NCBI GenBank assembly: GCA_019426215.1
Contig: CM033399.1
Span: 36,465,022-36,529,021, forward strand
Length of the DNA: 64,000 bases
Origin: Buddleja alternifolia
Taxonomy: Eukaryota; Streptophyta; Magnoliopsida; Lamiales; Scrophulariaceae
Direction: 5' to 3'
A model generated the notes under the pieces. The model was not told the origin of the DNA. It did no database searches and saw nothing but the letters and a program-made list of their open reading frames with translations. The position numbers were made by a program, and so were the translations under genes. This document shows, in pieces, positions 14,238 through 58,886 of the stretch; position 1 is the first letter of the stretch; every line of letters starts with the position of its first letter.

Positions 14238-14474
14238 TGTTAAGAAACTAAATCTTCCATGGATGAAGATTGATCAGAGAAATCGAAGAAATCAACCGAG
14301 AGAAGAGAGAGAAGGAATTAAAAGTGACTTTCATTGAAAAGAATGAATGAATGATTTTACACAGTAAGAAAAGGTTTATAAATCAGCTAATCGCCCGATT
14401 AACTAAAACATACTGACGTGGCACTATTAACCAACGGCTATAAAATAATACAAAATTATTTCTTATTCTTAATA
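14238..14474 (-). repeat. 3' LTR of the 14238-18972 Copia element
   Basis: 237 bp. Plus-strand start TGTTAAGAAACTA, end TTCTTAATA, immediately followed by the CTCCCCCTC complement of the polypurine tract. Confidence 0.95.
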
Positions 14475-16615
14475 CTCCCCCTCAAATTTGGTGAGCTAAA
14501 CAGATCCAAAACACCAAATTTGCTTAACAAATAGTCAAATTGAAACTTGCTCAATGCCTTTGTAAGAAGATCTGCTGGCTGCTCATTTGAAGGCAAATAT
14601 CTTGTAGAAATCACTCCTTCTTGGATCTTGTCTCTTATAAAATGGCAATCCACCTCAATGTGTTTTGTTCTCGCATGAAACACTGGATTGGCTGCAATCT
14701 GGATGGCTGACTTGCTGTCACTGAATAAGGTCACTGGTTGCAAATTTGTGACTCCTAAATCTTTGAAAATACTGAGTAACCAAATCACTTCAGCAGTAGT
14801 AGTCCCCATGGCTCTATACATAGCTTCTGCTGAACTTCTAGAGACTGTGTTCTGTTTTTTAGCTTTCCATGAAATCAAGGAGTCTCCAAGGAATATAGCA
14901 TAACCTGTTAAAGATTTTCTGGACATAGGGCAAGAAGCCCAATCACTATCACAAAAGGCTGTTAACTCCAATTTAGATCCAGAAGATAACAAAATACCCA
15001 AACCAGGTTTACCTTTTAAGTATCTCAAAATTCCATACATGGCAACAAAATGCGATTTTCTATGCTTATGCATAAACTGGCTAAGTAACTGAACACCATA
15101 ACTAATGTCAGGCCTTGTTAAACATAGATAAATCAATTTTCCAATGATTTTTTGATAAACAGTGATATTTTCTACTAGAGGATCATTAATATCATCAAAA
15201 TTTTCAGAAAATTTCATGTTTTGTTCCACTGGTATATTCACAGGTTTACTTCCAAGCATACCAGTTTCTTTTAACAAATCTAAAGCATATTTTCTTTGAT
15301 TCATATATATACCTTGAGAAGACCTAGCAACTTCTATTCCAAGAAAATATTTCAACTTTCCTAAGTCTTTCATATGAAAGGTAGTATTCAAATATTCATT
15401 ACACTCTTTAATCAAATCATCATTGGTTCCAGTAATTAATATATCATCTACATAAACAAGGAGAATAACCATGTCACTCCCCCTGGTTTTTACAAACAAA
15501 GAATAATCATTCTTTGACTGAATGAAACCAAAAACACCTACTGCTTCTGTGAATTTATTATTCCACTGTCTGGAGGCTTGTTTTAAGCCATAAAGAGACT
15601 TTTGTAACTCACATACCTTGTTACCTTCAAACTGAAAACCTGGAGGTATGGACATGTACACTTCTTCATGTAACTCCCCTTGTAAGAAAGCATTTGTTAC
15701 ATCCATCTGCCACAAAGGCCAACCATATATAGCTGCAAGAGAAATCACAATCCTAACAGTAACTTGCTTAACTACAGGGGAAAAAGTTTTTGTATAGTCA
15801 ATGCCCTCCAATTGTGTATAGCCCTTTGCAACTAATCTTGCCTTGTATCTATCTATACTACCACCTGATTTATGCTTAATGTTGTAAACCCATCGACAAC
15901 CTACAGGTTTCTTTCCATGAGGTAAATCAACAATTGTCCAAGTCTTGTTCAACTCAAGAGCTTTAATTTCAGATTCTATAGCATCAATCCATCTTTTATC
16001 ATTCTTTACTTGGTGGTAATTATCAGGAATGACATCATTTGTTAAAGCAGCTAAATAGGATTTATATTCAGTACTAATGCCATCATAATGAATAAAATTT
16101 GATAAAGGGTGCTTAGTAGATGAACTAACATCATTACTTTCAGAATGAAACAACACATAGTCCTTACTCCAAACAGGAGGTGTAACAGTCCTAGTGGATC
16201 TTCTTACCATGACACTTTGATCATCATTTTGATTTCTGGGTTCATGAACAGTATGCTCAACATTTCTAATATCATTCACATCATCATTAACAAGCATAGG
16301 AGAAGAAGGAGCAGAATAAGGCACAACAAGCTCATCATAAAACTGTCTAACATCATGAAAAGGAAAATTTTGATTGTTCTTCTCATTATTATCAATAGCT
16401 AATGGAAAAATATGCTCATAGAATATCACATCTCTAGATACACTAAAAGTTTTGGTGCTTAAATCCAATAATCTATAACCTTTTTGTGTGTTAGAGTACC
16501 CCATCATCACACAAGGTTTAGACCTAGGTTGAAATTTATCATTTTGGGGTAAAAATTTTGCAAAGCATAAGCAACCAAAAACTCTCAAGTGAGTGTAAAA
16601 AGGTTTTTTTTCCAT
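14456..16615 (-). pseudogene. Copia integrase C-terminus, reverse transcriptase, RNase H
   Basis: 719 residues. The start is at a second homopolymer frameshift (T8 at 16604-16611). The N-terminus is the integrase tail (HLRVFGCLCFAKF). The reverse transcriptase follows with RWVYNIKHK, KARLVAKGYTQ and LYGLKQASRQW, and the catalytic YVDD at residues 388-391. RNase H follows from about residue 555 (CDSDWASCP, SRSSAEAMYRAM), then the conserved tail (KHIEVDCHFIRD, PADLLTKAL). This block is uninterrupted and would be active if linked to the upstream frame. Confidence 0.95.
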
Positions 16616-16887
16616 TTAAAACAGTAAGAGGAGCTTGACCCTTTAAAAGAGGAGTAGGGGTTCTATTTATCAAATAAACAGAAGTGTTAATACATTCACC
16701 CCAATATTTCATAGGCACATGAGAATGAAATTTAATAGCTCTAGCAACATTAAAAATGTGCCTATGCTTCCTTTCAACAACACCATTTTGTTGTGGTGTA
16801 TATATACAAGAGCTTTGGTGTACAACACCAAGAGATGCAAATAACTTTGTACATTCTTGACTAAAAAAGTCCCAAGCATTATCAGTT

Positions 16888-18150
16888 CTAACCTTTTTTT
16901 ACTTTAACAGCAAACTGTGTGTTAACATAGGTGAAGAACTTATGCAAAATATCATAAACTTCTGTCTTAGCTTTCATCAAAAAAGCCCAAGTTGTTCTAG
17001 AGAAATCATCAACTATAGTCAAGAAATACTTCTCATGATTGTATGTAAGCTCTCTATAAGGCCCCCATATATCAACATGCAAAAGCTCAAAAATACTTGA
17101 AGTAAAAGTGCTTTTATTAGGAAAAACAGTCCTTACATGTTTTGCCAGGGGACAAATAGAACAATATCTAGAATTTATTGGCACCTTTACATTCAAATCA
17201 GGAAGAAATTCAAATCTAGCAAATGACATGTGACCAAATCTTTGATGCCACAGAGCAGCTTTATCAAAAACAACAGACTTGGAAAAAATAGTACTGTTAG
17301 TAGAATTACATTTGACAGGAAAATTATTGAAAGTATTGGCTAAAAGATCATTGGGGACTGGATGTAGATAGTATAGACCATTCTTGAGCCTACCAATCCC
17401 CTTAATCATGCCATTCCACATCTCCTGTATTATACAAAAGTTAGGGTAAAAATTTATGAACACATTTGCATCACTTGTAAGCTTAGAGACAGACAACAAA
17501 TTATGTCTAAAATCAGGAACATATAGCACATTATAGAGAGTCAAACCATTAACAAGTTTAACTGTTCCTGAATAAGCCACTTTGCTTTCTACACCATTAG
17601 GCAGCTTAACAGTAGTGAAATTAAAGGATTCATTATAATAAGACTCATACATGTTTATATTAGAGATCATGTGTTGATTAGCACCTGTATCAATTATCCA
17701 ATCATTATTATGATAATCATTGGGATCAAGAGTACCTGCATGATTGGCCTCAGCCTTTGCCAAGTTGGAATTACTCAAGTTCTGTGATGAGTCATGAGAA
17801 CTATTTCCAAGTAGCTGAAGAATCTGCTGATATTGTTGTTGTGTGAAGGCAGAGGTTCCAATTTCTTGTTTCTCATTATTGACATTCACACTAGTATCCT
17901 GAGAACTTTTAGTGGATGCTACTGAATTAGCATTAAAACCTCTTCCAACAGGAACTCCAGTGCCCCTGCCACCACCTCTTCTGCCATTAAAAGTTTTCCT
18001 TCCACCTCTACCCCAATTAGGGGGATAACCATGAATCTTGAAGCAGTTTTCCTTTGTGTGACCAGTGAAATTGCAATGCTCACAATACAATGAAGATCTT
18101 GCAGATTTGCTCTGAGATGAGCTAGATAAGAAAACAATCGATGAGTCCAC
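16888..18150 (-). pseudogene. Copia gag C-terminus, protease and integrase N-terminus
   Basis: 420 residues, in order: a CCHC-type knuckle (CEHCNFTGHTKENC), the aspartic protease site DWIIDTGANQHM, the gag-pre-integrase block LWHQRFGHMSF, and the first part of the integrase core (HVDIWGPY, IVDDFSRTTW). The frame ends prematurely at an A run (T7 at 16894-16900 on the plus strand). One base fewer would restore the usual reading, which continues past 16888 in another frame with the NGVVERKH motif. Protein products would be cleaved from a gag-pol polyprotein in the cytoplasmic particle. Confidence 0.93.
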
Positions 18151-18722
18151 ATTGACAGGTTGAACATGAATACCTTTCTGTAAAGTGCATACGGTTTTGC
18201 ACCATTAACTCTGTCAAATCACTCCTTAAGATCCTTCCAAATTAAAAAGGCCGAATCGCAGTATACAACTCCGTGAATGAGGTCTCGAGATAGAGATCTA
18301 TGAATCCATGACTTAACCAAGGCATTAAACCTTTTCCAATGCGGATATAAGGAAGAATCTTCGTCTGGAATTTTGCAAGTTTTATTAATGAAATCGATTT
18401 TATTCTTTGCTTCGAGCGCGACGATCATCTCTCGGCTCCAGATTTTGTAATTCTCGGATCCTTGCAATACTTCAGTAACCAGATCAAGATTAGGGGTATC
18501 GGAAGGGTGTAGGTATAAAGGATCTTGAAAATCGATTACCGAAGAGGAATTTTTGGATGTTACTGCAGTTGAAGCAGATGTTAATGTTGTTGGAGGATCC
18601 GACATTGTTGATTTGCAGAGATCGAACAAAGATAAAGAAATATGCGGAAGCGATCCAAGATCGATTGATTGAAAACCAAAAAAGAAAAAGAACAAAGAGT
18701 ATGAACGGATGAAATCAATCAC
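18150..18722 (-). pseudogene. Copia gag, interrupted
   Basis: The minus frame starts in the leader; the likely native start is the MSDPPTTLT phrase. It contains typical plant Copia gag blocks (ENYKIWSREMIVAL, KNKIDFINKTCKIP, FLIWKDLKE). At 18219 a TGA stop replaces what is usually an arginine codon in this family, consistent with C-to-T change at a CpG. The frame then continues FDRVNGAKPYALYRKVF and jumps to the zinc-knuckle region, so the middle of gag is deleted. Gag of this copy is therefore non-functional. Confidence 0.85.
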
Positions 18723-18735
18723 CGCTCTGGTACCA

Positions 18736-18972
18736 TGTTAAGAAACTAAGTCTTCCATGGATGAAGATTGATCAGAGAAATCGAAGAAATCAACCGAGAG
18801 AAGAGAGAGAAAAAATTAAAAGTGACTTTCATTGAAAAGAATGAATGAATGATTTTACACAGTAAGAAAAGGTTTATAAATCAGCTAATCCCCTGATTAA
18901 CTAAAACATGCTGACGTGGCACTATTAACCAACGGCTATAAAATAATACAAAATTATTTCTTATTCTTAATA
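18736..18972 (-). repeat. 5' LTR of the 14238-18972 Copia element
   Basis: 237 bp, about 97.5% identical to the other LTR. It is preceded on its internal side by the tRNA-iMet-type primer-binding site. Confidence 0.95.
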
Positions 18973-19215
18973 CCATTTAAGTGTCTCAAGCCCAGTTAGT
19001 TCTAGCCCGTTATTGCAGCAGTCATGAGCATAAATTGGTCATTCTTTAAGAAACGTTCTACGTTTTGTACTTTTTGAGTTGTATATATGTTGGACAATAA
19101 TTTGTTAGTTTTAATTCTAAAACTAGGAGAGAAAAAGAAAAGCTCTTTCAATTTTTTAACTATACTTTGAAATTAAATTTACTTAAACGTTTTCCTAGCT
19201 CAATTTGTTAACAAA

Positions 19216-41276: not shown

Positions 41277-42468
41277 AAAGCAAAATCCCATGTACCCCAT
41301 GTGATAGTCATTATTCTTCAAAAATTCCCCTGTGATAAAAAATTCCAAAGAAGACCCCTCCCTATGAAAAAAAATAAAGGTACAATTTAACCCCCTACGC
41401 GCGTAGTGCGCTTGGTTATAATTTTTTTGACCCTTTTGGATAATTTTGCCCCTGATTAACAATTATTGGATCAAATAGGATAAAATCGACGGTCCAGATT
41501 AATATCTATATATTGTTTAAATTTGATTAATCACATCCATAGATCTAAAAAATATCAACGGCTATAAACATATTATATTTAATATTTATTTTATTTAAAA
41601 AACATATTTTATATATAAATATATATTTTTGAATTTATAAAGATATTAAAAGAATATATATATACCGGGCCGCCGCCGTGTATAGACACCTCCGCCGTCT
41701 ACAACGCTTGAAAAATTGCCGGGGGTGTTTTTTATGATTTTGTTATTGGGTTTGTTTGTGGTGCAAATTGTTGAGGGGAGAAAGATTGAGAAAGAAGTAT
41801 TTGGAGGATTTGGAGGTGGTGGAGGTGTTGGTTGAGGACTTGGGGGAGGAGCATGTGGCGGACTTGGGGAGACGCAGGTGTCAGACTTGGTGGAGGTGTT
41901 GGCAACTGCCGGAGCAACATCTTTGATCCACTTTCGTTAGACATTTGGGATCCATTCGAAGGCTTCCCATTTTCAGGCGCGGTCGCCAATCGGGAAACGT
42001 CGTCGTTCGCTAGTGCTCGAATCGACTGGAAAGAGACGCCGACAGTGCACGTGTTCAAGGCTGATTTGCCGGGGCTGAAGAAGGAGGAAGTGAAGGTGCA
42101 GGTTGGTTGTTGTAGAGGTCAGCGGTGATGGGAGGCTACTGGGGAAGAAGATGGTGGTGGTGGTGGTGGTGGTGTATAGGAGATTGGAGATGGAGGTTTT
42201 GGGGAAGAAGAAGGTGAGAAAGAAGGAAAAGGAAATAAAAAATGAAATTAAAAATAATTATAAAATAAAATAAATAAAATATGGTTTAAATATTTTCAAA
42301 GTACAAGGGTATTTTCATCTTCACAAGAAAAATCAAAGTCAAAATATGTTTGAGGAGGTAGTGGGTATATTTCTTAAAAATTCAAGGGGGTAAGTTGATA
42401 ATTATTTTATCACAGGGGTTTTTTTGAAGAATAACGACTATCACACGGGGGTAAATTGGGCTTTACTC
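41277..42468. mobile_element. Pack-MULE-like element with a captured gene fragment
   Basis: About 100-bp imperfect terminal inverted repeats: left AAAGCAAAATCCCATGTACC then TGTGATAGTCATTATTCTTC; right, as reverse complement, AAAGCCCAATTTACCCCC then TGTGATAGTCGTTATTCTTC. The outer flanks share the 9-bp direct repeat AATTTTTAT (41268-41276 and 42469-42477). The left tip lacks about 4 bp present at the right tip. The interior (41650-42230) is far more GC-rich than the surroundings and contains exon-like sequence, which defines a Pack-MULE. Confidence 0.75.
41910..42104 (+). pseudogene. Class I small heat-shock protein fragment (captured)
   Basis: The frame reads [20 protein letters not shown], then a shortened linker, then [20 protein letters not shown] and [10 protein letters not shown]. 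This is the N-terminal arm and the first strands of the alpha-crystallin domain of plant cytosolic class I sHSPs (HSP17/18 family). The native N-terminus is missing and most of the alpha-crystallin domain after KVQV is absent. The sequence on both sides is unrelated glycine/proline-biased DNA. It lies inside a MULE-type element, so it is best read as a captured exon piece, not a chaperone gene. Transcription of the chimera from a TIR promoter is possible but not shown. Confidence 0.88.
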
Positions 42469-43390
42469 AATTTTTATATTAATGAACATTGTGTAGACGG
42501 AAATTTTGTTAATAGAAAATTTATTAATACAAAATATAATTTTGCATTATTTATAAAATGAAAAAAATTATATAGGAAGACCGTGAAAATACAAATAAGA
42601 AGCATAAGGATAGATGAAAAAAATAATCTATGGAAATGCTGAAATATAAAACGGACACAAAAAAGACGAAAGAATCAACTATGTGTTGGAAATCTTGATT
42701 GAGTAAATTGTGTTTAGCGCAATTTTATTGGAGATTTAAGTGAATTCCACATGTTGAGAGTGGAGTGTCTTTTACTTAAATTAATCTACGTTTTGAGTAG
42801 ATAAATTTAGAGTATTTAATTACTCAAATCCGATTTCGGGTGAATGAGAAATTAATTAGCAAAGTGTATCACTTAAAATGTTTCTCATAATTGGAATCAA
42901 TAATTGATGTGAACAAACGCGAATAAATGATCTCAATTATACGATCGACGGCCGCGGTCGTATAAGAAATAGTTCATTTAGTTCGTGGTCTAAAATGTTC
43001 AAATCGGAAAATTGAGGGACCAATTTGAAAGGACTTAATAAATCAAGATTCAAAGTTTTGGGGTCAAAATTAAAGTCTGTGGAAAAATAGGAGCTGAATT
43101 GCACAGCCGGATGGTGCAACCGCCCGCACCTAATCCTTTCCAGAAAATAGTGGCTTGTTATTGGTTGAGAGGCGGGTGTACGGTACACCAGCCACACCGG
43201 ATCATAACCATGTCAGGCGGATTTTATCTTTTAGCTCAGGGGTTGTTTTGAACAATTGCAACTCTTGGGGCTAATTTGAAAAGTCCGAAAAGGTGCAGTT
43301 AGGGGGCATTTTGTCCAAAAGACACAACCTTTGGGTCTTTCTGCAGAAATCCGAAAAGTCACACTTTTTGACCCAAAACCTTTCCTTCTC

Positions 43391-43398
43391 TATAAATA
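43391..43398 (+). promoter_or_regulatory. LTR promoter TATA box (repeated in each LTR)
   Basis: TATAAATA in a C-rich context (TATAAATAGCCCCCCATAG). The same position recurs in LTRs 2-5 at +3736/3737 steps. It sets the element orientation to plus together with the tract before each downstream LTR. Confidence 0.7.
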
Positions 43399-43454
43399 GC
43401 CCCCCATAGTTTGGATTTATTTACACCAATATCATATTCTCTTCTCTCTTTTAT

Positions 43455-43695
43455 TCTTAGTACTAATTTGAGTACTTTGAATATTCTTTTGTTTCTTAAA
43501 TATTAATTTTAATATTTTAAGAATAGTGTTGAATATTAAATGCTAAATTGAGCATTTAAAATATTCTTGAAGTTCTTAAATATTATTTTAAGAATTATTT
43601 AGTACTAATTTGAGTACTTTAAATATTCTTAAATATTATTTTAATATTGTAAGAATAAGTTTGCATATTAAATGTTTAGATGTGCATTTAATTCA
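43455..43695 (+). other. Serial hairpin region in the LTR
   Basis: Just downstream of the TATA box lie consecutive short palindromes: AGTACTAATTTGAGTACT (twice), AAATGCTAAATTGAGCATTT, and several TTCTTAAATATT...AATATT..AAGAA stems. Most loops share (A)AATTTGAG or AAATTGAG. The 5' part of the LTR has similar ones (ATCTACGTTTTGAGTAGAT). They would fold in the RNA leader. Confidence 0.7.
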
Positions 43696-44111
43696 TCCAT
43701 GTCCATCGAGAGAGTTTGGAACAAGTATTTTGTTCGCTAGGCTCGAAAATTTGTAGTGGTACTATTTTCGAGACGTTTGTCGTTGTATCTTGGGAGACAA
43801 TTGCCGTATTCCGTGACCACCAAGTGCGGGGCAATATTGTCTTAAGGAAATAGGGTAACCCTTGCCTCGACATATCATTATCATTTTGCATCTTCATAAA
43901 CACCGCCTGTTACGCGCTAGAATTTTTCCCAACAACTTAAGACAATAATTTTGGAGTGTATTATGAAGATGGTTTGCTCCGAGTTATCTATGTCTATGCA
44001 AGGCAGCGGATATATTAGCAAACAGGGAGTTCAACACAATTTTTTCAAATCAATAATAGTATTAAATTGCTTTGATATGAATGACTAACAATTTAATTTT
44101 ATTGTGCATAG

Positions 44112-44312
44112 GTTGGAATACAATCTGGAAATGCTAATGTGGTAATTAGCAACCCTTTTGCATATGGAAAATATGTTCCAGGCATCAATTGGAACTGTTC
44201 CAATCGAAACTTAATTGTTATTGTTCAAGGGCACGTTGTCATTGCTAGTGGACATGACCGAACTAAAACGTGGAAGCTATCAAAGGCAAAATATTGGTTA
44301 CAAAACAAATAA
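44112..44312 (+). CDS. Unidentified 66-codon open frame in the array unit
   Basis: Directly after an acceptor-like site (TTTTATTGTGCATAG, ending 44111) an open frame reads VGIQSGNANVVISNPFAYGK, then YVPGINWNCSNRNLIVIVQG, and ends WLQNK before TAA. It has no ATG at its start, so it would need splicing from an upstream exon such as 43963-44088 (MKMVCSELSMS). The same frame is kept in internals 2-4 at +3736 steps, but those copies are too recent for this to show selection. I do not recognise the family. It could be a captured plant exon. Confidence 0.35.
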   Translation, partial: VGIQSGNANVVISNPFAYGKYVPGINWNCSNRNLIVIVQGHVVIASGHDRTKTWKLSKAKYWLQNK

Positions 44313-45207
44313 TGAGATAAGTTCTTATTATGAATTATCAATTTTATAATTGCTTTATTTGATTACATATTGTGTTGAATAATATTAAATGTGATTTAAT
44401 ATCTAGTTATGCAACAATGATGTAATCATGTTAGAAAAACTTGAGCATGCGGTATTATGTGATTAAAACATTTAATTATATTTTATCTTGGTGATATTCT
44501 TGATAAAGAATAAATAATTGTTCATGCTTAAGATTGCGTTATTTTACTACGCATATATGAAGTAATTGTTTAGAAGTTCTCTTTCGACTTATGAATAAAT
44601 GCAATAAGTGCGATTCTTCACTATGTTTGACAATCTTTAGTATAAAACCTGATCACAATGAATGAAGAAATGCATCATTTAAATAATTGATTTAAATTGT
44701 TTGCATGTTATTTTCATGTGATAGTGACGTTTATTTAAAGAAGTCAATTTCGTGTTAAGAACAATTATTGCATTATTTAGAGTTGTAGCCTACAATTTTC
44801 ACCATAAAAGTGAAATAGTTGTTGAGGCTAAACTAGTCATTGTTTCGTTTAAGCGAAAGAAAATCGAGTCTATTTTTAAGAAATTAAAATAGACAATGTG
44901 TAACGTCGTCACTATGAACCTGTAAGGTTCTAAGTGAGAATTTTTCCAAATGTTTCATATTATGAAACATACTCTCCGAAGAGAGAAATGTGGACGACAT
45001 ATTGTACAAAGTACACAACTTGGTCAAGAATAAAGAATGTTAATGGTCGGAGTAAGATCGAGAAAGTTGATCAAATGTCTAAAATTAAATCCAAGAAAAT
45101 GACCTTAAGGCCTTAGACAATTTGGTAAAATAGTTGGTGCACTGACAATATTCGGAATAAAGATAAGTCAAAATTGTCTTTAATTGAGGACAAATTGAAC
45201 CATATAA

Positions 45208-45383
45208 ATGGTGGGTGTTCGTCTAAGACGATCCCAACCACACAAAATGTGTGTGATCATCAAGACAAACCAAGCTAGGCAAATGGTGGGTGATTAAATC
45301 ACTAAAACCAAGCTAGGCAAATGGTGGGTGGTCGGACCTTACGCTCTCTACTGTAGTGAGAGGTAACTAAACGAATGGTGGGT
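45208..45383 (+). repeat. ATGGTGGGT motif, four copies
   Basis: ATGGTGGGT occurs at 45208, 45283, 45321 and 45375; two are preceded by CCAAGCTAGGCAA. The same 9-mer forms the tract immediately before each downstream LTR (46410-46418 here). Confidence 0.85.
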
Positions 45384-46409
45384 CGACACCGGTGCTACAC
45401 ATACATCCGAGCTGGAAAGGCAGATGTATTGAGTATCACTAGTAATTGACGTAATGACCTTTTGAAGGCATTGATTAGAGTTCGTAGATATATAAAATAT
45501 GCTATGAACTGTGACTACTCTATACGATATATCCAAGTGTACGAATAGAATACACTGAGGAAAATGGACATTCTTTATTGGCTAGATTTTGTGCCACCTT
45601 TTCGATACATTGTACAAAATAGTCGACAGTCGTAAGGGCACAAAATAGCATGTAAAGTGGTAGTCTCGACACATATGTCGAAGATATAAAACCATTAGCA
45701 GTGATTTTAAGTGGCATTGTCTCTATTGATTGAGTAAGATCAAATGAGAATGTATGGATCCAAATGTATGCCTAAAAGATCAAATAAACTGCATATCGAT
45801 GGGAATGGGCCTAAAGCCTACATAATTAAGAATCGACATAGTGGAAACCCAACCTTGTTGACTGGAGATCCCAAGATCTTGGTTCAATGGGAGAACGAAA
45901 TTATGAAGATTCAGTGATGCACTTGAGGAGTTTAAAACACCTACCCATTCCTAGGATAAACAAGTGCAACCTGCAGAGCGTAGCTGAGGTTAAGCAAGTA
46001 GCTTTTAATGATTCCTATACTGTCTAAATGTGTGACGCAACAAAGTGGGGTACGGCAGGGTACTCTTTATAGGAGATCACCTATGTAAGTGAGAAGTGAG
46101 GGCCGCTTCAATATAGTAAACACTTATGAATCCAAGATGGTGTTCCATGGCCAAAACGGACCCAATTGAGAACAAAATCTGTTAGAGAAGTTATTGTGTG
46201 AGTATCATTGTCTTGGTTTACACAAACGGCTGGCCAATTCAAGACATCACGTTCATTGGGGAGCCAAGTAAATCCGATGGTATTTCACTAAGGAAGGTTC
46301 AAAGCCACAAGCTACCTCTCCTGATGCAATAGCTTTTCGCCCGAACTCTCTCATTGTCTGCATAGTCTGCATTGCGTCTGCATAGTCTGCATTTGCATTA
46401 ATTTCATTC

Positions 46410-46419
46410 ATGGTGGGTA
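46410..46419 (+). other. Polypurine-tract-like sequence before LTR2
   Basis: ATGGTGGGTA abuts TGTTGG of the LTR, the position expected for the plus-strand primer. It is a weak polypurine tract, being interrupted by T. It recurs before LTR3, LTR4 and LTR5. Confidence 0.5.
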
Positions 46420-47670
46420 TGTTGGAAATCTTGATTGAGTAAATTGTGTTTAGCGCAATTTTATTGGAGATTTAAGTGAATTCCACATGTTGAGAGTGGA
46501 GTGTCTTTTACTTAAATTAATCTACGTTTTGAGTAGATAAATTTAGAGTATTTAATTACTCAAATCCGATTTCGGGTGAATGAGAAATTAATTAGCAAAG
46601 TGTATCACTTAAAATGTTTCTCATAATTGGAATCAATAATTGATGTGAACAAACGCGAATAAATGATCTCAATTATACGATCGACGGCCGCGGTCGTATA
46701 AGAAATAGTTCATTTAGTCCGTGGTCTAAAATGTTCAAATCGGAAAATTGAGGGACCAATTTGAAAGGACTTAATAAATCAAGATTCAAAGTTTTGGGGT
46801 CAAAATTAAAGTCTGTGGAAAAATAGGGGCTGAATTGCACAGCCGGATGGTGCAACCGCCCGCACCTAATCATTTCCCGAAAATAGTGGCTTGTTATTGG
46901 TTGAGAGGCGGGTGTACGGTACACCAGCCACACCGGATCATAACCATGTCAGGCGGATTTTATCTTTTAGCTCAGGGGTTGTTTTGAACAATTGCAACTC
47001 TTGGGGCTAATTTGAAAAGTCCGAAAAGGTGCAGTTAGGGGGCATTTTGTCCAAAAGACACAACCTTTGGGTCTTTCTGCAGAAATCCGAAAAGTCACAC
47101 TTTTTGACCCAAAACCTTTCCTTCTCTATAAATAGCCCCCCATAGTTTGGATTTATTTACACCAATATCATATTCTCTTCTCTCTTTTATTCTTAGTACT
47201 AATTTGAGTACTTTGAATATTCTTTTGTTTCTTAAATATTAATTTTAATATTTTAAGAATAGTGTTGAATATTAAATGCTAAATTGAGCATTTAAAATAT
47301 TCTTGAAGTTCTTAAATATTATTTTAAGAATTATTTAGTACTAATTTGAGTACTTTAAATATTCTTAAATATTATTTTAATATTGTAAGAATAAGTTTGC
47401 ATATTAAATGTTTAGATGTGCATTTAATTCATCCATGTCCATCGAGAGAGTTTGGAACAAGTATTTTGTTCGCTAGGCTCGAAAATTTGTAGTGGTACTA
47501 TTTTCGAGACGTTTGTCGTTGTATCTTGGGAGACAATTGCCGTATTCCGTGACCACCAAGTGCGGGGCAATATTGTCTTACGGAAATAGGGTAACCCTTG
47601 CCTCGACATATCATTATCATTTTGCATCTTCATAAACACCGCCTGTTACGCGCTAGAATTTTTCCCAACA
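46420..47670 (+). repeat. LTR2 of the array
   Basis: 1251 bp. At offsets 299-458 it matches LTR5, at 941 and 1163 it matches LTR1, and at 1161 it has a C shared only with LTR3 and LTR4. Confidence 0.97.
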
Positions 47671-50156
47671 ACTTAAGACAATAGTTTTGGAGTGTATTAT
47701 GAAGATGGTTTGCTCCGAGTTATCTATGTCTGTGCAAGGCAGCGGATATATTAGCAAACATGGAGTTCAACACAATTTTTTCAAATCAATAATAGTATTA
47801 AATTGCTTTGATATGAATGACTAACAATTTAATTTTATTGTGCATAGGTTGGAATACAATCTGGAAATGCTAATGTGGTAATTAGCAACCCTTTTGCATA
47901 TGGAAAATATGTTCCAGGCATCAATTGGAACTGTTCCAATCGAAACTTAATTGTTATTGTTCAAGGGCACGTTGTCATTGCTAGTGGACATGACCGAACT
48001 AAAACGTGGAAGCTATCAAAGGCAAAATATTGGTTACAAAACAAATAATGAGATAAGTTCTTATTATGAATTATCAATTTTATAATTGCTTTATTTGATT
48101 ACATATTGTGTTGAATAATATTAAATGTGATTTAATATCTAGTTATGCAACAATGATGTAATCATGTTAGAAAAACTTGAGCATGCGGTATTATGTGATT
48201 AAAACATTTAATTATATTTTATCTTGGTGATATTCTTGATAAAGAATAAATAATTGTTCATGCTTAAGATTGCGTTATTTTACTACGCATATATGAAGTA
48301 ATTGTTTAGAAGTTCTCTTTCGACTTATGAATAAATGCAATAAGTGCGATTCTTCACTATGTTTGACAATCTTTAGTATAAAACCTGATCACAATGAATG
48401 AAGAAATGCATCATTTAAATAATTGATTTAAATTGTTTGCATGTTATTTTCATGTGATAGTGACGTTTATTTAAAGAAGTCAATTTCGTGTTAAGAACAA
48501 TTATTGCATTATTTAGAGTTGTAGCCTACAATTTTCACCATAAAAGTGAAATAGTTGTTGAGGCTAAACTAGTCATTGTTTCGTTTAAGCGAAAGAAAAT
48601 CGAGTCTATTTTTAAGAAATTAAAATAGACAATGTGTAACGTCGTCACTATGAACCTGTAAGGTTCTAAGTGAGAATTTTTCCAAATGTTTCATATTATG
48701 AAACATACTCTCCGAAGAGAGAAATGTGGACGACATATTGTACAAAGTACACAACTTGGTCAAGAATAAAGAATGTTAATGGTCGGAGTAAGATCGAGAA
48801 AGTTGATCAAATGTCTAAAATTAAATCCAAGAAAATGACCTTAAGGCCTTAGACAATTTGGTAAAATAGTTGGTGCACTGACAATATTCGGAATAAAGAT
48901 AAGTCAAAATTGTCTTTAATTGAGGACAAATTGAACCATATAAATGGTGGGTGTTCGTCTAAGACGATCCCAACCACACAAAATGTGTGTGATCATCAAG
49001 ACAAACCAAGCTAGGCAAATGGTGGGTGATTAAATCACTAAAACCAAGCTAGGCAAATGGTGGGTGGTCGGACCTTACGCTCTCTACTGTAGTGAGAGGT
49101 AACTAAACGAATGGTGGGTCGACACCGGTGCTACACATACATCCGAGCTGGAAAGGCAGATGTATTGAGTATCACTAGTAATTGACGTAATGACCTTTTG
49201 AAGGCATTGATTAGAGTTCGTAGATATATAAAATATGCTATGAACTGTGACTACTCTATACGATATATCCAAGTGTACGAATAGAATACACTGAGGAAAA
49301 ATGGACATTCTTTATTGGCTAGATTTTGTGCCACCTTTTCGATACATTGTACAAAATAGTCGACAGTCGTAAGGGCACAAAATAGCATGTAAAGTGGTAG
49401 TCTCGACACATATGTCGAAGATATAAAACCATTAGCAGTGATTTTAAGTGGCATTGTCTCTATTGATTGAGTAAGATCAAATGAGAATGTATGGATCCAA
49501 ATGTATGCCTAAAAGATCAAATAAACTGCATATCGATGGGAATGGGCCTAAAGCCTACATAATTAAGAATCGACATAGTGGAAACCCAACCTTGTTGACT
49601 GGAGATCCCAAGATCTTGGTTCAATGGGAGAACGAAATTATGAAGATTCAGTGATGCACTTGAGGAGTTTAAAACACCTACCCATTCCTAGGATAAACAA
49701 GTGCAACCTGCAGAGCGTAGCTGAGGTTAAGCAAGTAGCTTTTAATGATTCCTATACTGTCTAAATGTGTGACGCAACAAAGTGGGGTACGGCAGGGTAC
49801 TCTTTATAGGAGATCACCTATGTAAGTGAGAAGTGAGGGCCGCTTCAATATAGTAAACACTTATGAATCCAAGATGGTGTTCCATGGCCAAAACGGACCC
49901 AATTGAGAACAAAATCTGTTAGAGAAGTTATTGTGTGAGTATCATTGTCTTGGTTTACACAAACGGCTGGCCAATTCAAGACATCACGTTCATTGGGGAG
50001 CCAAGTAAATCCGATGGTATTTCACTAAGGAAGGTTCAAAGCCACAAGCTACCTCTCCTGATGCAATAGCTTTTCGCCCGAACTCTCTCATTGTCTGCAT
50101 AGTCTGCATTGCGTCTGCATAGTCTGCATTTGCATTAATTTCATTCATGGTGGGTA
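47671..50156 (+). mobile_element. Internal domain 2 of the array
   Basis: 2486 bp. Reads the same as internals 3 and 4 wherever compared. Confidence 0.92.
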
Positions 50157-51407
50157 TGTTGGAAATCTTGATTGAGTAAATTGTGTTTAGCGCAATTTTA
50201 TTGGAGATTTAAGTGAATTCCACATGTTGAGAGTGGAGTGTCTTTTACTTAAATTAATCTACGTTTTGAGTAGATAAATTTAGAGTATTTAATTACTCAA
50301 ATCCGATTTCGGGTGAATGAGAAATTAATTAGCAAAGTGTATCACTTAAAATGTTTCTCATAATTGGAATCAATAATTGATGTGAACAAACGCGAATAAA
50401 TGATCTCAATTATACGATCGACGGCCGCGGTCGTATAAGAAATAGTTCATTTAGTCCGTGGTCTAAAATGTTCAAATCGGAAAATTGAGGGACCAATTTG
50501 AAAGGACTTAATAAATCAAGATTCAAAGTTTTGGGGTCAAAATTAAAGTCTGTGGAAAAATAGGGGCTGAATTGCACAGCCGGATGGTGCAACCGCCCGC
50601 ACCTAATCATTTCCCGAAAATAGTGGCTTGTTATTGGTTGAGAGGCGGGTGTACGGTACACCAGCCACACCGGATCATAACCATGTCAGGCGGATTTTAT
50701 CTTTTAGCTCAGGGGTTGTTTTGAACAATTGCAACTCTTGGGGCTAATTTGAAAAGTCCGAAAAGGTGCAGTTAGGGGGCATTTTGTCCAAAAGACACAA
50801 CCTTTGGGTCTTTCTGCAGAAATCCGAAAAGTCACACTTTTTGACCCAAAACCTTTCCTTCTCTATAAATAGCCCCCCATAGTTTGGATTTATTTACACC
50901 AATATCATATTCTCTTCTCTCTTTTATTCTTAGTACTAATTTGAGTACTTTGAATATTCTTTTGTTTCTTAAATATTAATTTTAATATTTTAAGAATAGT
51001 GTTGAATATTAAATGCTAAATTGAGCATTTAAAATATTCTTGAAGTTCTTAAATATTATTTTAAGAATTATTTAGTACTAATTTGAGTACTTTAAATATT
51101 CTTAAATATTATTTTAATATTGTAAGAATAAGTTTGCATATTAAATGTTTAGATGTGCATTTAATTCATCCATGTCCATCGAGAGAGTTTGGAACAAGTA
51201 TTTTGTTCGCTAGGCTCGAAAATTTGTAGTGGTACTATTTTCGAGACGTTTGTCGTTGTATCTTGGGAGACAATTGCCGTATTCCGTGACCACCAAGTGC
51301 GGGGCAATATTGTCTTACGGAAATAGGGTAACCCTTGCCTCGACATATCATTATCATTTTGCATCTTCATAAACACCGCCTGTTACGCGCTAGAATTTTT
51401 CCCAACA
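50157..51407 (+). repeat. LTR3 of the array
   Basis: 1251 bp. Same as LTR2 and LTR4 at every diagnostic site. Confidence 0.97.
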
Positions 51408-53893
51408 ACTTAAGACAATAGTTTTGGAGTGTATTATGAAGATGGTTTGCTCCGAGTTATCTATGTCTGTGCAAGGCAGCGGATATATTAGCAAACATGG
51501 AGTTCAACACAATTTTTTCAAATCAATAATAGTATTAAATTGCTTTGATATGAATGACTAACAATTTAATTTTATTGTGCATAGGTTGGAATACAATCTG
51601 GAAATGCTAATGTGGTAATTAGCAACCCTTTTGCATATGGAAAATATGTTCCAGGCATCAATTGGAACTGTTCCAATCGAAACTTAATTGTTATTGTTCA
51701 AGGGCACGTTGTCATTGCTAGTGGACATGACCGAACTAAAACGTGGAAGCTATCAAAGGCAAAATATTGGTTACAAAACAAATAATGAGATAAGTTCTTA
51801 TTATGAATTATCAATTTTATAATTGCTTTATTTGATTACATATTGTGTTGAATAATATTAAATGTGATTTAATATCTAGTTATGCAACAATGATGTAATC
51901 ATGTTAGAAAAACTTGAGCATGCGGTATTATGTGATTAAAACATTTAATTATATTTTATCTTGGTGATATTCTTGATAAAGAATAAATAATTGTTCATGC
52001 TTAAGATTGCGTTATTTTACTACGCATATATGAAGTAATTGTTTAGAAGTTCTCTTTCGACTTATGAATAAATGCAATAAGTGCGATTCTTCACTATGTT
52101 TGACAATCTTTAGTATAAAACCTGATCACAATGAATGAAGAAATGCATCATTTAAATAATTGATTTAAATTGTTTGCATGTTATTTTCATGTGATAGTGA
52201 CGTTTATTTAAAGAAGTCAATTTCGTGTTAAGAACAATTATTGCATTATTTAGAGTTGTAGCCTACAATTTTCACCATAAAAGTGAAATAGTTGTTGAGG
52301 CTAAACTAGTCATTGTTTCGTTTAAGCGAAAGAAAATCGAGTCTATTTTTAAGAAATTAAAATAGACAATGTGTAACGTCGTCACTATGAACCTGTAAGG
52401 TTCTAAGTGAGAATTTTTCCAAATGTTTCATATTATGAAACATACTCTCCGAAGAGAGAAATGTGGACGACATATTGTACAAAGTACACAACTTGGTCAA
52501 GAATAAAGAATGTTAATGGTCGGAGTAAGATCGAGAAAGTTGATCAAATGTCTAAAATTAAATCCAAGAAAATGACCTTAAGGCCTTAGACAATTTGGTA
52601 AAATAGTTGGTGCACTGACAATATTCGGAATAAAGATAAGTCAAAATTGTCTTTAATTGAGGACAAATTGAACCATATAAATGGTGGGTGTTCGTCTAAG
52701 ACGATCCCAACCACACAAAATGTGTGTGATCATCAAGACAAACCAAGCTAGGCAAATGGTGGGTGATTAAATCACTAAAACCAAGCTAGGCAAATGGTGG
52801 GTGGTCGGACCTTACGCTCTCTACTGTAGTGAGAGGTAACTAAACGAATGGTGGGTCGACACCGGTGCTACACATACATCCGAGCTGGAAAGGCAGATGT
52901 ATTGAGTATCACTAGTAATTGACGTAATGACCTTTTGAAGGCATTGATTAGAGTTCGTAGATATATAAAATATGCTATGAACTGTGACTACTCTATACGA
53001 TATATCCAAGTGTACGAATAGAATACACTGAGGAAAAATGGACATTCTTTATTGGCTAGATTTTGTGCCACCTTTTCGATACATTGTACAAAATAGTCGA
53101 CAGTCGTAAGGGCACAAAATAGCATGTAAAGTGGTAGTCTCGACACATATGTCGAAGATATAAAACCATTAGCAGTGATTTTAAGTGGCATTGTCTCTAT
53201 TGATTGAGTAAGATCAAATGAGAATGTATGGATCCAAATGTATGCCTAAAAGATCAAATAAACTGCATATCGATGGGAATGGGCCTAAAGCCTACATAAT
53301 TAAGAATCGACATAGTGGAAACCCAACCTTGTTGACTGGAGATCCCAAGATCTTGGTTCAATGGGAGAACGAAATTATGAAGATTCAGTGATGCACTTGA
53401 GGAGTTTAAAACACCTACCCATTCCTAGGATAAACAAGTGCAACCTGCAGAGCGTAGCTGAGGTTAAGCAAGTAGCTTTTAATGATTCCTATACTGTCTA
53501 AATGTGTGACGCAACAAAGTGGGGTACGGCAGGGTACTCTTTATAGGAGATCACCTATGTAAGTGAGAAGTGAGGGCCGCTTCAATATAGTAAACACTTA
53601 TGAATCCAAGATGGTGTTCCATGGCCAAAACGGACCCAATTGAGAACAAAATCTGTTAGAGAAGTTATTGTGTGAGTATCATTGTCTTGGTTTACACAAA
53701 CGGCTGGCCAATTCAAGACATCACGTTCATTGGGGAGCCAAGTAAATCCGATGGTATTTCACTAAGGAAGGTTCAAAGCCACAAGCTACCTCTCCTGATG
53801 CAATAGCTTTTCGCCCGAACTCTCTCATTGTCTGCATAGTCTGCATTGCGTCTGCATAGTCTGCATTTGCATTAATTTCATTCATGGTGGGTA
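51408..53893 (+). mobile_element. Internal domain 3 of the array
   Basis: 2486 bp. Same content as internal 2. Confidence 0.92.
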
Positions 53894-55144
53894 TGTTGGA
53901 AATCTTGATTGAGTAAATTGTGTTTAGCGCAATTTTATTGGAGATTTAAGTGAATTCCACATGTTGAGAGTGGAGTGTCTTTTACTTAAATTAATCTACG
54001 TTTTGAGTAGATAAATTTAGAGTATTTAATTACTCAAATCCGATTTCGGGTGAATGAGAAATTAATTAGCAAAGTGTATCACTTAAAATGTTTCTCATAA
54101 TTGGAATCAATAATTGATGTGAACAAACGCGAATAAATGATCTCAATTATACGATCGACGGCCGCGGTCGTATAAGAAATAGTTCATTTAGTCCGTGGTC
54201 TAAAATGTTCAAATCGGAAAATTGAGGGACCAATTTGAAAGGACTTAATAAATCAAGATTCAAAGTTTTGGGGTCAAAATTAAAGTCTGTGGAAAAATAG
54301 GGGCTGAATTGCACAGCCGGATGGTGCAACCGCCCGCACCTAATCATTTCCCGAAAATAGTGGCTTGTTATTGGTTGAGAGGCGGGTGTACGGTACACCA
54401 GCCACACCGGATCATAACCATGTCAGGCGGATTTTATCTTTTAGCTCAGGGGTTGTTTTGAACAATTGCAACTCTTGGGGCTAATTTGAAAAGTCCGAAA
54501 AGGTGCAGTTAGGGGGCATTTTGTCCAAAAGACACAACCTTTGGGTCTTTCTGCAGAAATCCGAAAAGTCACACTTTTTGACCCAAAACCTTTCCTTCTC
54601 TATAAATAGCCCCCCATAGTTTGGATTTATTTACACCAATATCATATTCTCTTCTCTCTTTTATTCTTAGTACTAATTTGAGTACTTTGAATATTCTTTT
54701 GTTTCTTAAATATTAATTTTAATATTTTAAGAATAGTGTTGAATATTAAATGCTAAATTGAGCATTTAAAATATTCTTGAAGTTCTTAAATATTATTTTA
54801 AGAATTATTTAGTACTAATTTGAGTACTTTAAATATTCTTAAATATTATTTTAATATTGTAAGAATAAGTTTGCATATTAAATGTTTAGATGTGCATTTA
54901 ATTCATCCATGTCCATCGAGAGAGTTTGGAACAAGTATTTTGTTCGCTAGGCTCGAAAATTTGTAGTGGTACTATTTTCGAGACGTTTGTCGTTGTATCT
55001 TGGGAGACAATTGCCGTATTCCGTGACCACCAAGTGCGGGGCAATATTGTCTTACGGAAATAGGGTAACCCTTGCCTCGACATATCATTATCATTTTGCA
55101 TCTTCATAAACACCGCCTGTTACGCGCTAGAATTTTTCCCAACA
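53894..55144 (+). repeat. LTR4 of the array
   Basis: 1251 bp. Same as LTR2 and LTR3 at every diagnostic site. Confidence 0.97.
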
Positions 55145-57630
55145 ACTTAAGACAATAGTTTTGGAGTGTATTATGAAGATGGTTTGCTCCGAGTTATCTA
55201 TGTCTGTGCAAGGCAGCGGATATATTAGCAAACATGGAGTTCAACACAATTTTTTCAAATCAATAATAGTATTAAATTGCTTTGATATGAATGACTAACA
55301 ATTTAATTTTATTGTGCATAGGTTGGAATACAATCTGGAAATGCTAATGTGGTAATTAGCAACCCTTTTGCATATGGAAAATATGTTCCAGGCATCAATT
55401 GGAACTGTTCCAATCGAAACTTAATTGTTATTGTTCAAGGGCACGTTGTCATTGCTAGTGGACATGACCGAACTAAAACGTGGAAGCTATCAAAGGCAAA
55501 ATATTGGTTACAAAACAAATAATGAGATAAGTTCTTATTATGAATTATCAATTTTATAATTGCTTTATTTGATTACATATTGTGTTGAATAATATTAAAT
55601 GTGATTTAATATCTAGTTATGCAACAATGATGTAATCATGTTAGAAAAACTTGAGCATGCGGTATTATGTGATTAAAACATTTAATTATATTTTATCTTG
55701 GTGATATTCTTGATAAAGAATAAATAATTGTTCATGCTTAAGATTGCGTTATTTTACTACGCATATATGAAGTAATTGTTTAGAAGTTCTCTTTCGACTT
55801 ATGAATAAATGCAATAAGTGCGATTCTTCACTATGTTTGACAATCTTTAGTATAAAACCTGATCACAATGAATGAAGAAATGCATCATTTAAATAATTGA
55901 TTTAAATTGTTTGCATGTTATTTTCATGTGATAGTGACGTTTATTTAAAGAAGTCAATTTCGTGTTAAGAACAATTATTGCATTATTTAGAGTTGTAGCC
56001 TACAATTTTCACCATAAAAGTGAAATAGTTGTTGAGGCTAAACTAGTCATTGTTTCGTTTAAGCGAAAGAAAATCGAGTCTATTTTTAAGAAATTAAAAT
56101 AGACAATGTGTAACGTCGTCACTATGAACCTGTAAGGTTCTAAGTGAGAATTTTTCCAAATGTTTCATATTATGAAACATACTCTCCGAAGAGAGAAATG
56201 TGGACGACATATTGTACAAAGTACACAACTTGGTCAAGAATAAAGAATGTTAATGGTCGGAGTAAGATCGAGAAAGTTGATCAAATGTCTAAAATTAAAT
56301 CCAAGAAAATGACCTTAAGGCCTTAGACAATTTGGTAAAATAGTTGGTGCACTGACAATATTCGGAATAAAGATAAGTCAAAATTGTCTTTAATTGAGGA
56401 CAAATTGAACCATATAAATGGTGGGTGTTCGTCTAAGACGATCCCAACCACACAAAATGTGTGTGATCATCAAGACAAACCAAGCTAGGCAAATGGTGGG
56501 TGATTAAATCACTAAAACCAAGCTAGGCAAATGGTGGGTGGTCGGACCTTACGCTCTCTACTGTAGTGAGAGGTAACTAAACGAATGGTGGGTCGACACC
56601 GGTGCTACACATACATCCGAGCTGGAAAGGCAGATGTATTGAGTATCACTAGTAATTGACGTAATGACCTTTTGAAGGCATTGATTAGAGTTCGTAGATA
56701 TATAAAATATGCTATGAACTGTGACTACTCTATACGATATATCCAAGTGTACGAATAGAATACACTGAGGAAAAATGGACATTCTTTATTGGCTAGATTT
56801 TGTGCCACCTTTTCGATACATTGTACAAAATAGTCGACAGTCGTAAGGGCACAAAATAGCATGTAAAGTGGTAGTCTCGACACATATGTCGAAGATATAA
56901 AACCATTAGCAGTGATTTTAAGTGGCATTGTCTCTATTGATTGAGTAAGATCAAATGAGAATGTATGGATCCAAATGTATGCCTAAAAGATCAAATAAAC
57001 TGCATATCGATGGGAATGGGCCTAAAGCCTACATAATTAAGAATCGACATAGTGGAAACCCAACCTTGTTGACTGGAGATCCCAAGATCTTGGTTCAATG
57101 GGAGAACGAAATTATGAAGATTCAGTGATGCACTTGAGGAGTTTAAAACACCTACCCATTCCTAGGATAAACAAGTGCAACCTGCAGAGCGTAGCTGAGG
57201 TTAAGCAAGTAGCTTTTAATGATTCCTATACTGTCTAAATGTGTGACGCAACAAAGTGGGGTACGGCAGGGTACTCTTTATAGGAGATCACCTATGTAAG
57301 TGAGAAGTGAGGGCCGCTTCAATATAGTAAACACTTATGAATCCAAGATGGTGTTCCATGGCCAAAACGGACCCAATTGAGAACAAAATCTGTTAGAGAA
57401 GTTATTGTGTGAGTATCATTGTCTTGGTTTACACAAACGGCTGGCCAATTCAAGACATCACGTTCATTGGGGAGCCAAGTAAATCCGATGGTATTTCACT
57501 AAGGAAGGTTCAAAGCCACAAGCTACCTCTCCTGATGCAATAGCTTTTCGCCCGAACTCTCTCATTGTCTGCATAGTCTGCATTGCGTCTGCATAGTCTG
57601 CATTTGCATTAATTTCATTCATGGTGGGTA
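55145..57630 (+). mobile_element. Internal domain 4 of the array
   Basis: 2486 bp. Same content as internals 2 and 3. Confidence 0.92.
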
Positions 57631-58881
57631 TGTTGGAAATCTTGATTGAGTAAATTGTGTTTAGCGCAATTTTATTGGAGATTTAAGTGAATTCCACATG
57701 TTGAGAGTGGAGTGTCTTTTACTTAAATTAATCTACGTTTTGAGTAGATAAATTTAGAGTATTTAATTACTCAAATCCGATTTCGGGTGAATGAGAAATT
57801 AATTAGCAAAGTGTATCACTTAAAATGTTTCTCATAATTGGAATCAATAATTGATGTGAACAAACGCGAATAAATGATCTCAATTATACGATCGACGGCC
57901 GCGGTCGTATAAGAAATAGTTCATTTAGTCCGTGGTCTAAAATGTTCAAATCGGAAAATTGAGGGACCAATTTGAAAGGACTTAATAAATCAAGATTCAA
58001 AGTTTTGGGGTCAAAATTAAAGTCTGTGGAAAAATAGGGGCTGAATTGCACAGCCGGATGGTGCAACCGCCCGCACCTAATCATTTCCCGAAAATAGTGG
58101 CTTGTTATTGGTTGAGAGGCGGGTGTACGGTACACCAGCCACACCGGATCATAACCATGTCAGGCGGATTTTATCTTTTAGCTCAGGGGTTGTTTTGAAC
58201 AATTGCAACTCTTGGGGCTAATTTGAAAAGTCCGAAAAGGTGCAGTTAGGGGGCATTTTGTCCAAAAGACACAACCTTTGGGTCTTTCTGCAGAAATCCG
58301 AAAAGTCACACTTTTTGACCCAAAACCTTTCCTTCTCTATAAATAGCCCCCCATAGTTTGGATTTATTTACACCAATATCATATTCTCTTCTCTCTTTTA
58401 TTCTTAGTACTAATTTGAGTACTTTGAATATTCTTTTGTTTCTTAAATATTAATTTTAATATTTTAAGAATAGTGTTGAATATTAAATGCTAAATTGAGC
58501 ATTTAAAATATTCTTGAAGTTCTTAAATATTATTTTAAGAATTATTTAGTACTAATTTGAGTACTTTAAATTTTCTTAAATATTATTTTAATATTGTAAG
58601 AATAAGTTTGCATATTAAATGTTTAGATGTGCATTTAATTCATCCATGTCCATCGAGAGAGTTTGGAACAAGTATTTTGTTCGCTAGGCTCGAAAATTTG
58701 TAGTGGTACTATTTTCGAGACGTTTGTCGTTGTATCTTGGGAGACAATTGCCGTATTCCGTGACCACCAAGTGCGGGGCAATATTGTCTTAAGAAAATAG
58801 GGTAACCCTTGCCTCGACATATCATTATCATTTTGCATCTTCATAAACACCGCCTGTTACGCGCTAGAATTTTTCCCAACA
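57631..58881 (+). repeat. LTR5 of the array
   Basis: 1251 bp. Private differences near offsets 941 (58572) and 1163 (58794). It shares A with LTR1 at offset 1161. It is followed directly by the TSD CTATG. Confidence 0.97.
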
Positions 58882-58886
58882 CTATG

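Follow-up and report, generated by a model that had tools for sequence, protein, structure and literature searches.

A five-LTR tandem retrotransposon array in Buddleja alternifolia that probably grew in place by exchange between its terminal repeats

The 64,000-nucleotide stretch of Buddleja alternifolia DNA analyzed here (contig CM033399.1, positions 36,465,022 to 36,529,021; hereafter the window, with coordinates counted from its first letter) carries a tandem retrotransposon array of 16.2 kb, in which five long terminal repeats (LTRs) and four internal regions follow one another head to tail between positions 42684 and 58881. This architecture had been proposed in a first-pass annotation made from the sequence letters, and it was borne out by self-BLAST over 41-60.5 kb of the window together with a unit-by-unit comparison. 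The LTRs start at 42684, 46420, 50157, 53894 and 57631, with self-BLAST periods of 3736, 3737, 3737 and 3737 bp for the 3.7-kb unit, and the array is closed by a fifth LTR ending at 58881. Each LTR is 1,251 bp long and reads TGTTGG...CCAACA, and the internals measure 2485, 2486, 2486 and 2486 bp in order. The units share an in-register self-match of 12,462 bp at 99.9%, which is not chance. A 5-bp target-site duplication (TSD), CTATG, abuts only the outer edges of LTR1 and LTR5 and was found at none of the internal junctions. All unit counts are those of the assembly, and the number of identical middle units in the plant may differ. The features of the array are as follows.

42679-42683, no strand: target-site duplication CTATG, left copy
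42684-43934, plus strand: LTR1, 1251 bp; LTR 409, 453 and 459 carry new bases private to it, and 300 keeps the family base T
43935-46419, plus strand: internal 1, 2485 bp; private 1-nt deletion near internal 1627
46420-47670, plus strand: LTR2, the first middle LTR; C300 as in LTR3-5, C1162 as in LTR3-4
47671-50156, plus strand: internal 2; set apart from internal 1, together with internals 3 and 4, by G at 14, G at 62 and T at 91
50157-51407, plus strand: LTR3, identical to LTR2
51408-53893, plus strand: internal 3, identical to internal 2
53894-55144, plus strand: LTR4, identical to LTR2
55145-57630, plus strand: internal 4, identical to internal 2
57631-58881, plus strand: LTR5; C300 like LTR2-4, unlike the other four at 942 and 1164; family base A retained at 1162
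58882-58886, no strand: target-site duplication CTATG, right copy

The middle units, first described as near-identical, are in fact identical to the letter in both their LTRs (LTR2, LTR3 and LTR4) and their internals (2, 3 and 4), with LTR1, internal 1 and LTR5 slightly different from them. Variable sites are confined to LTR positions 300, 409, 453, 459, 942, 1162 and 1164, internal positions 14, 62 and 91, and one indel near internal 1627. Units 1 and 2 are separated by eight substitutions and the indel; units 2-4 show zero differences in 3 x 3737 bp, an outcome with a probability of about 6e-6 (star-tree estimate) if units 2-4 were as old as the split between units 1 and 2.

The bases at these sites were polarised with other copies of the family from the same genome. 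In a DNA search of the assembly (853.6 Mb in 429 contigs) with one unit, 29 of 3411 first-look candidates were scored, giving 70 matches; the array's own places are missing from these, a sign that the list is not exhaustive. Relatives were sampled at 28 loci (L001-L028), 23 with two LTRs and five with a single LTR, which together supplied an outgroup of 51 LTRs and 23 internals. At LTR position 300, all 51 relative LTRs have T, as does LTR1; LTR2 to LTR5 have C. A 23-base pattern allowing either base at this site gave 115 matches, and among the 100 listed, C was present in four (LTR2-5) and T in 96, LTR1 included. No base common to all five LTRs was missing from the 51 relatives; the LTR that inserted here thus resembles the rest of the family, and the T of LTR1 needs no reversal.

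Other sites mark individual parts of the array. LTR1 alone has new bases at LTR 409, 453 and 459, and LTR5 alone has one at 942; at 1164, the A of LTR5 is also present in three of the 51 relatives, with T in one more. The C at 1162 is new and restricted to LTR2-4, and its exact 20-base context occurs three times in the genome, at these three LTRs. For internal position 62, an exact 21-base context yielded 15 matches, with G in the three from internals 2-4 and A in the other 12, internal 1 included. The C453 and A459 pair was carried only by LTR1 among two genome matches (up to one mismatch), the other match having A459 alone. Exact-context searches of this kind would overlook a donor with another difference inside the same 20-24 bases. 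In addition, six substitutions (internal 604, 677, 828, 1506, 1609 and 1700) are common to all four internals and absent from the 23 others, pointing to one common origin for the four.

The history that these bases most readily suggest, and that we consider quite probable, is the insertion of a simple LTR-internal-LTR copy followed by growth in place through unequal exchange between LTRs. A simple copy would have inserted first, as suggested by the single TSD and the simple form of most relatives. A T-to-C change at LTR 300 would then have arisen, presumably in the right-hand LTR, to account for the C300 distribution observed. An exchange between this right LTR and the left LTR of a sister chromatid or homologue, with the crossover to the right of 300, would give a new inner LTR holding the left part of the right LTR, and hence C300 in the inner LTRs. 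The predicted product, LTR1-int1-LTRm-int2-LTR5 (LTRm being the middle LTR), is the reciprocal of the event that produces solo LTRs. Unit 1, LTR5 and the middle unit each then acquired private changes, the middle unit apparently gaining C1162, G62 and likely T91 (and G14). Finally, the changed middle unit, whose private changes are present in every copy, would have been copied into three identical units, plausibly also by unequal exchange. These copies were most likely made at the array locus after insertion, because the C1162 and G62 contexts were found nowhere else in the assembly. The single TSD and the perfect register of the units support growth in place. Where the first-pass annotation had offered growth inside one insertion or integration as a multimer, outgroup polarisation favors the former; the multimer survives as a dimer that subsequently grew.

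Several observations weigh against this history. The first exchange rests on one shared site, 300, and a left/right mosaic is visible at no site, because LTR1 and the middle LTRs have no common new base on the right side. The eight substitutions between units 1 and 2 are clustered in two patches, four at LTR 300-459 and four from LTR 1162 to internal 91, and only 27 of 200,000 random placements were as clustered. This clustering is unexplained by exchange alone and suggests conversion or clustered mutation. Genome-wide searches for C1162, G62 and C453+A459 revealed no donor, T91 and G14 not having been searched genome-wide. At internal 14, 22 of the 23 relatives have T and one has C; internal 1 has A and internals 2-4 have G, both unlike the family. 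At internal 91, internal 1 has G, as do 11 of 23 relatives, and the T of internals 2-4 is also present in seven of the 23, whose internal 37-330 aligns poorly. In a relative on C1 (L031 5293-9901; L008, C1:58814292 onward), an extra LTR end in inverted orientation and an extra internal end of about 92 bp precede LTR-internal-LTR, all within one TSD, TAAGT; this copy looks like a rearranged cDNA integrated as a single unit. It keeps insertion of a multimer in play, since it suggests that such cDNA can enter the genome in one piece. The identical middle units could also have been miscounted by the assembler.

The alternative that survives best, although we regard it as unlikely, is that a multimer, probably a dimer of the form LTR-int-LTR-int-LTR, was produced by reverse transcription or read-through transcription and integrated, with later exchange spreading C300 to LTR2-5 and copying the middle unit. 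The single TSD fits this account equally well, the C1 relative looks like a cDNA of more than one unit within one TSD, and tandem transcripts from LTR circles are deemed possible in PMC11899658. The same in-place exchange would nevertheless be needed besides, given the C300, C1162 and G62 patterns, making for a longer history, and a full tetramer integrated at once fits poorly with identical units 2-4 next to a diverged unit 1. It is quite improbable that the assembler looped more than once over fewer middle units than appear here (e.g. LTR1-int1-LTRm-int2-LTR5 in the plant). Letter identity of units 2-4 over 3737 bp is what such looping would leave, but the private bases of LTR1, internal 1 and LTR5 demand two internals or more, barring a join of two haplotypes, and no second haplotype was seen in the assembly, the 784-bp left flank being full-length only at the array site (40 of 749 candidates scored). 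Least probable of all is patchwise overwriting of a simple or short array by other family copies, so that unit 1 came to look different, since C1162, G62 and C453+A459 are array-only in exact or one-mismatch contexts, although the two-patch clustering of the differences is in its favor and a more-diverged donor (within 20-24 bases) would escape these searches.

Returning to growth in place, we favor on balance the view that the locus is a readable record of a single insertion becoming a tandem by LTR-by-LTR exchange and of one unit then taking over by repeated copying, with the order given by private mutations and with no second retrotransposition. With substitution rates between 7e-9 and 1.3e-8 per site per year, the LTR1-LTR5 divergence of 6/1251 places the insertion at about 340-180 thousand years ago. 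At the same rates, given the zero changes in the three identical units, the last copying would be at most about 38-21 thousand years old; conversion between units would make it look younger.

The rest of the family is mostly simple. Matching 5-bp flanks were present at 19 of the 23 two-LTR relatives, and 22 of the 23 consist of a single internal flanked by two LTRs, the sampled flanks holding no additional unit; the exception is L008 with its extra pieces. Three of the five single LTRs (L025, L027 and L028) stand alone with matching 5-bp flanks, as expected if LTR-by-LTR exchange occurs in the array's family. The LTR pairs of L012, L013, L017 and L019 have zero substitutions, indicating that the family moved recently. 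Junction searches gave 147 matches to the LTR-end plus internal-start pattern (73 forward, 74 reverse; 100 listed) and 95 to the internal-end plus LTR-start pattern. Pairing the 100 and 95 listed junctions yielded 72 pairs, four of them in the array, and 60 of the 72 were spaced 2,365-2,874 bp. Among the junctions listed, inner (tandem) junctions occur at no fewer than three loci, namely the array, C2:2711585 and C1:58814583.

The C2 locus is a second family tandem (C2:2707532-2714355; L029, L033) of the form LTR-internal-LTR-internal, in which the second internal lacks its 3' part and the two LTRs differ at 15/1403 positions. L006 (C358, a 55-kb contig) and L007 (C12, a chromosome-size contig) hold near-identical elements with the same TSD, AATTG, and are possibly two haplotypes of one locus in the assembly. 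Within the array, most of the differing bases at internal 1455-1627 are shared with some relatives and absent from the closest copies (L001-L004 and L008), a patch suggesting that the source lineage underwent template switching before the element inserted.

The first unit contains nine stop-to-stop frames of at least 60 amino acids, and a Pfam scan of all nine gave none above the curated cut-off. At that sensitivity, the earlier statement that the element has no gag or pol holds, and a captured host gene in the internals was likewise rejected. With TG...CA LTRs, a 5-bp TSD and no gag or pol found, the element has the features of a non-autonomous LTR retrotransposon, and the alternation of LTRs and internals, the LTR at both ends and the single outer TSD with none at inner junctions are those of a shared-LTR tandem. 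Terminal-repeat retrotransposons in miniature (TRIMs) have very short LTRs and internals, a few hundred bases each at most; the array, with LTRs of 1251 bp and internals of 2485/2486 bp, is beyond that size. An Rfam scan of the whole window returned no family at the gathering score, and thus not the 5S ribosomal RNA (rRNA) match that would mark a Cassandra element. No autonomous partner was recognised at two family loci considered for this role: L036 (C247, 9.2 kb between junctions) has about 7 kb of other, unassigned sequence amid family pieces, and L037 (C2, 4.4 kb) has no frame longer than 103 amino acids, Pfam not having been run at either.

Candidate priming elements were located in the first unit at the following positions.

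43835-43846, plus strand: candidate self-primer arm, an LTR1 stretch of 12 nt that is an exact complement of the first bases of internal 1
43936-43947, plus strand: candidate primer-binding site adjoining LTR1, predicted to pair with the LTR arm; no TGG start
45209-45382, plus strand: cluster of four TGGTGGG motifs, with the same core as the purine-rich motif by the 3' LTR
46411-46417, plus strand: terminal TGGTGGG, candidate polypurine-tract core just before LTR2

A primer-binding site for the 3' end of a transfer RNA (tRNA) starts with TGG. Here, by sequence complementarity, the LTR arm is a candidate self-primer in place of a tRNA site. The arm and its complement at the internal start lie about 89 nt apart, and in the family the complement would pair the internal, from its second base, with the LTR at about position 1150 (in L001). 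Four of five family copies tested (L001, L002, L006 and L012) have a 14-nt exact complement and one has 12; LTR1 and internal 1 of the array have 12 nt, and the middle units have lost it through C1162. In dinucleotide shuffles of one LTR, 0 of 2000 reached 14 nt and the best was 12, seen once. The arm is 99.6% conserved, but 22% of LTR windows are as conserved. Counting against self-priming, when the LTR end was folded as RNA together with the start of the internal, the long pairing was absent from the minimum-energy structure, and the region folded no better than shuffles. Besides the terminal one, TGGTGGG occurs in two to five copies in each of the 27 internals scanned (the 23 relatives included), on the plus strand only, whereas the 47.8 kb of non-array sequence in the window has a single copy; the four extra motifs of the array lie within 174 bp and are repeated in each unit.

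Elsewhere in the window, a copia element lies on the minus strand at 14238-18973. Its end repeats of 238 bp are 97.5% identical, and its frames, several in number, give Pfam matches above cut-off to RVT_2, SH3_retrovirus, Pol_BBD and gag_pre-integrs. A cytochrome P450 frame is also present in the window; among the best 120 of 863 proteins matching it, the closest named ones come from Buddleja alternifolia (83%). The start of an HSP20-like small heat-shock frame is present at 41790-42125, with a weak Pfam match just below cut-off, and adjoining it is a dispersed repeat (about 42100-42480) with at least 39 further genome matches listed.

The first-pass annotation stated that LTR arrays sharing internal domains are known in plants, in agreement with published arrays (PMC11899658, PMC4717578). 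Its further view that four internals in one intact TSD are unusual is weakened by five-LTR/four-internal, Wukong and Cassandra arrays already in print (PMC4717578, PMC4528315, PMC7215508), and its description of a satellite-like block overstates four units at one locus. A 2025 survey (PMC11899658) reports tandem elements in rice whose units share LTRs within a single TSD, and counts 266 potential tandems in a pangenome. The two loci treated in detail, TLI1 and TLI2, resemble the array in alternating LTRs and internals, with outer LTRs in one 5-nt TSD and inner LTRs shared (99% identity in TLI2). They have two internals each, and the 28 selected rice tandems are all coding, whereas the array has four internals and no coding found. 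By the survey's own account, its data could not separate complex insertion from recombination, and the origin of its loci was left undecided; at the array, the polarised mutations favor growth in place.

The maize TRIM Zma-SMART L5I4 (PMC4717578) likewise has five LTRs and four internals in one TSD, ATAAT, but spans 862 bp in all by its listed coordinates, compared with 3.7 kb per unit, 16.2 kb overall and 1.25-kb LTRs here. Wukong elements with six and seven LTRs have been described, for which unequal crossing over was proposed (PMC4528315), and in Arabidopsis ten three-LTR elements and four with more (PMC5379124). Cassandra clusters, in which polymerase chain reaction revealed 13 LTRs and 12 internals (PMC7215508), resemble the array as long head-to-tail runs of a non-autonomous LTR element; their LTRs hold 5S rRNA sequence, unlike the window, which is without an Rfam match. 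Self-priming rather than a tRNA site is predicted for the plant Ty1/copia TAR lineage (PMC6317226); the array, in which no polyprotein was found, offers a candidate for it by sequence complementarity that the predicted fold does not show. If used, the candidate self-priming of the array would be a known type of priming.

The array architecture is thus already known; what this locus contributes is a large example, with no coding found, in which the order of events can be read, and its value lies in the mutation record. Among the outcomes of LTR-by-LTR exchange, the losing one, the solo LTR, is commonly counted; a mutation trail that documents the gaining one is harder to come by. Here, a few private bases polarised by relatives from the same genome separate the first exchange, the divergence that followed and the recent copying of one unit. 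If this history is true, the origin of LTR tandems in plants can be decided for each locus separately by comparison with outgroup copies in its own genome, and the same test, which needs no population data, would be applicable to the 266 candidate arrays counted in rice by the 2025 survey (PMC11899658).

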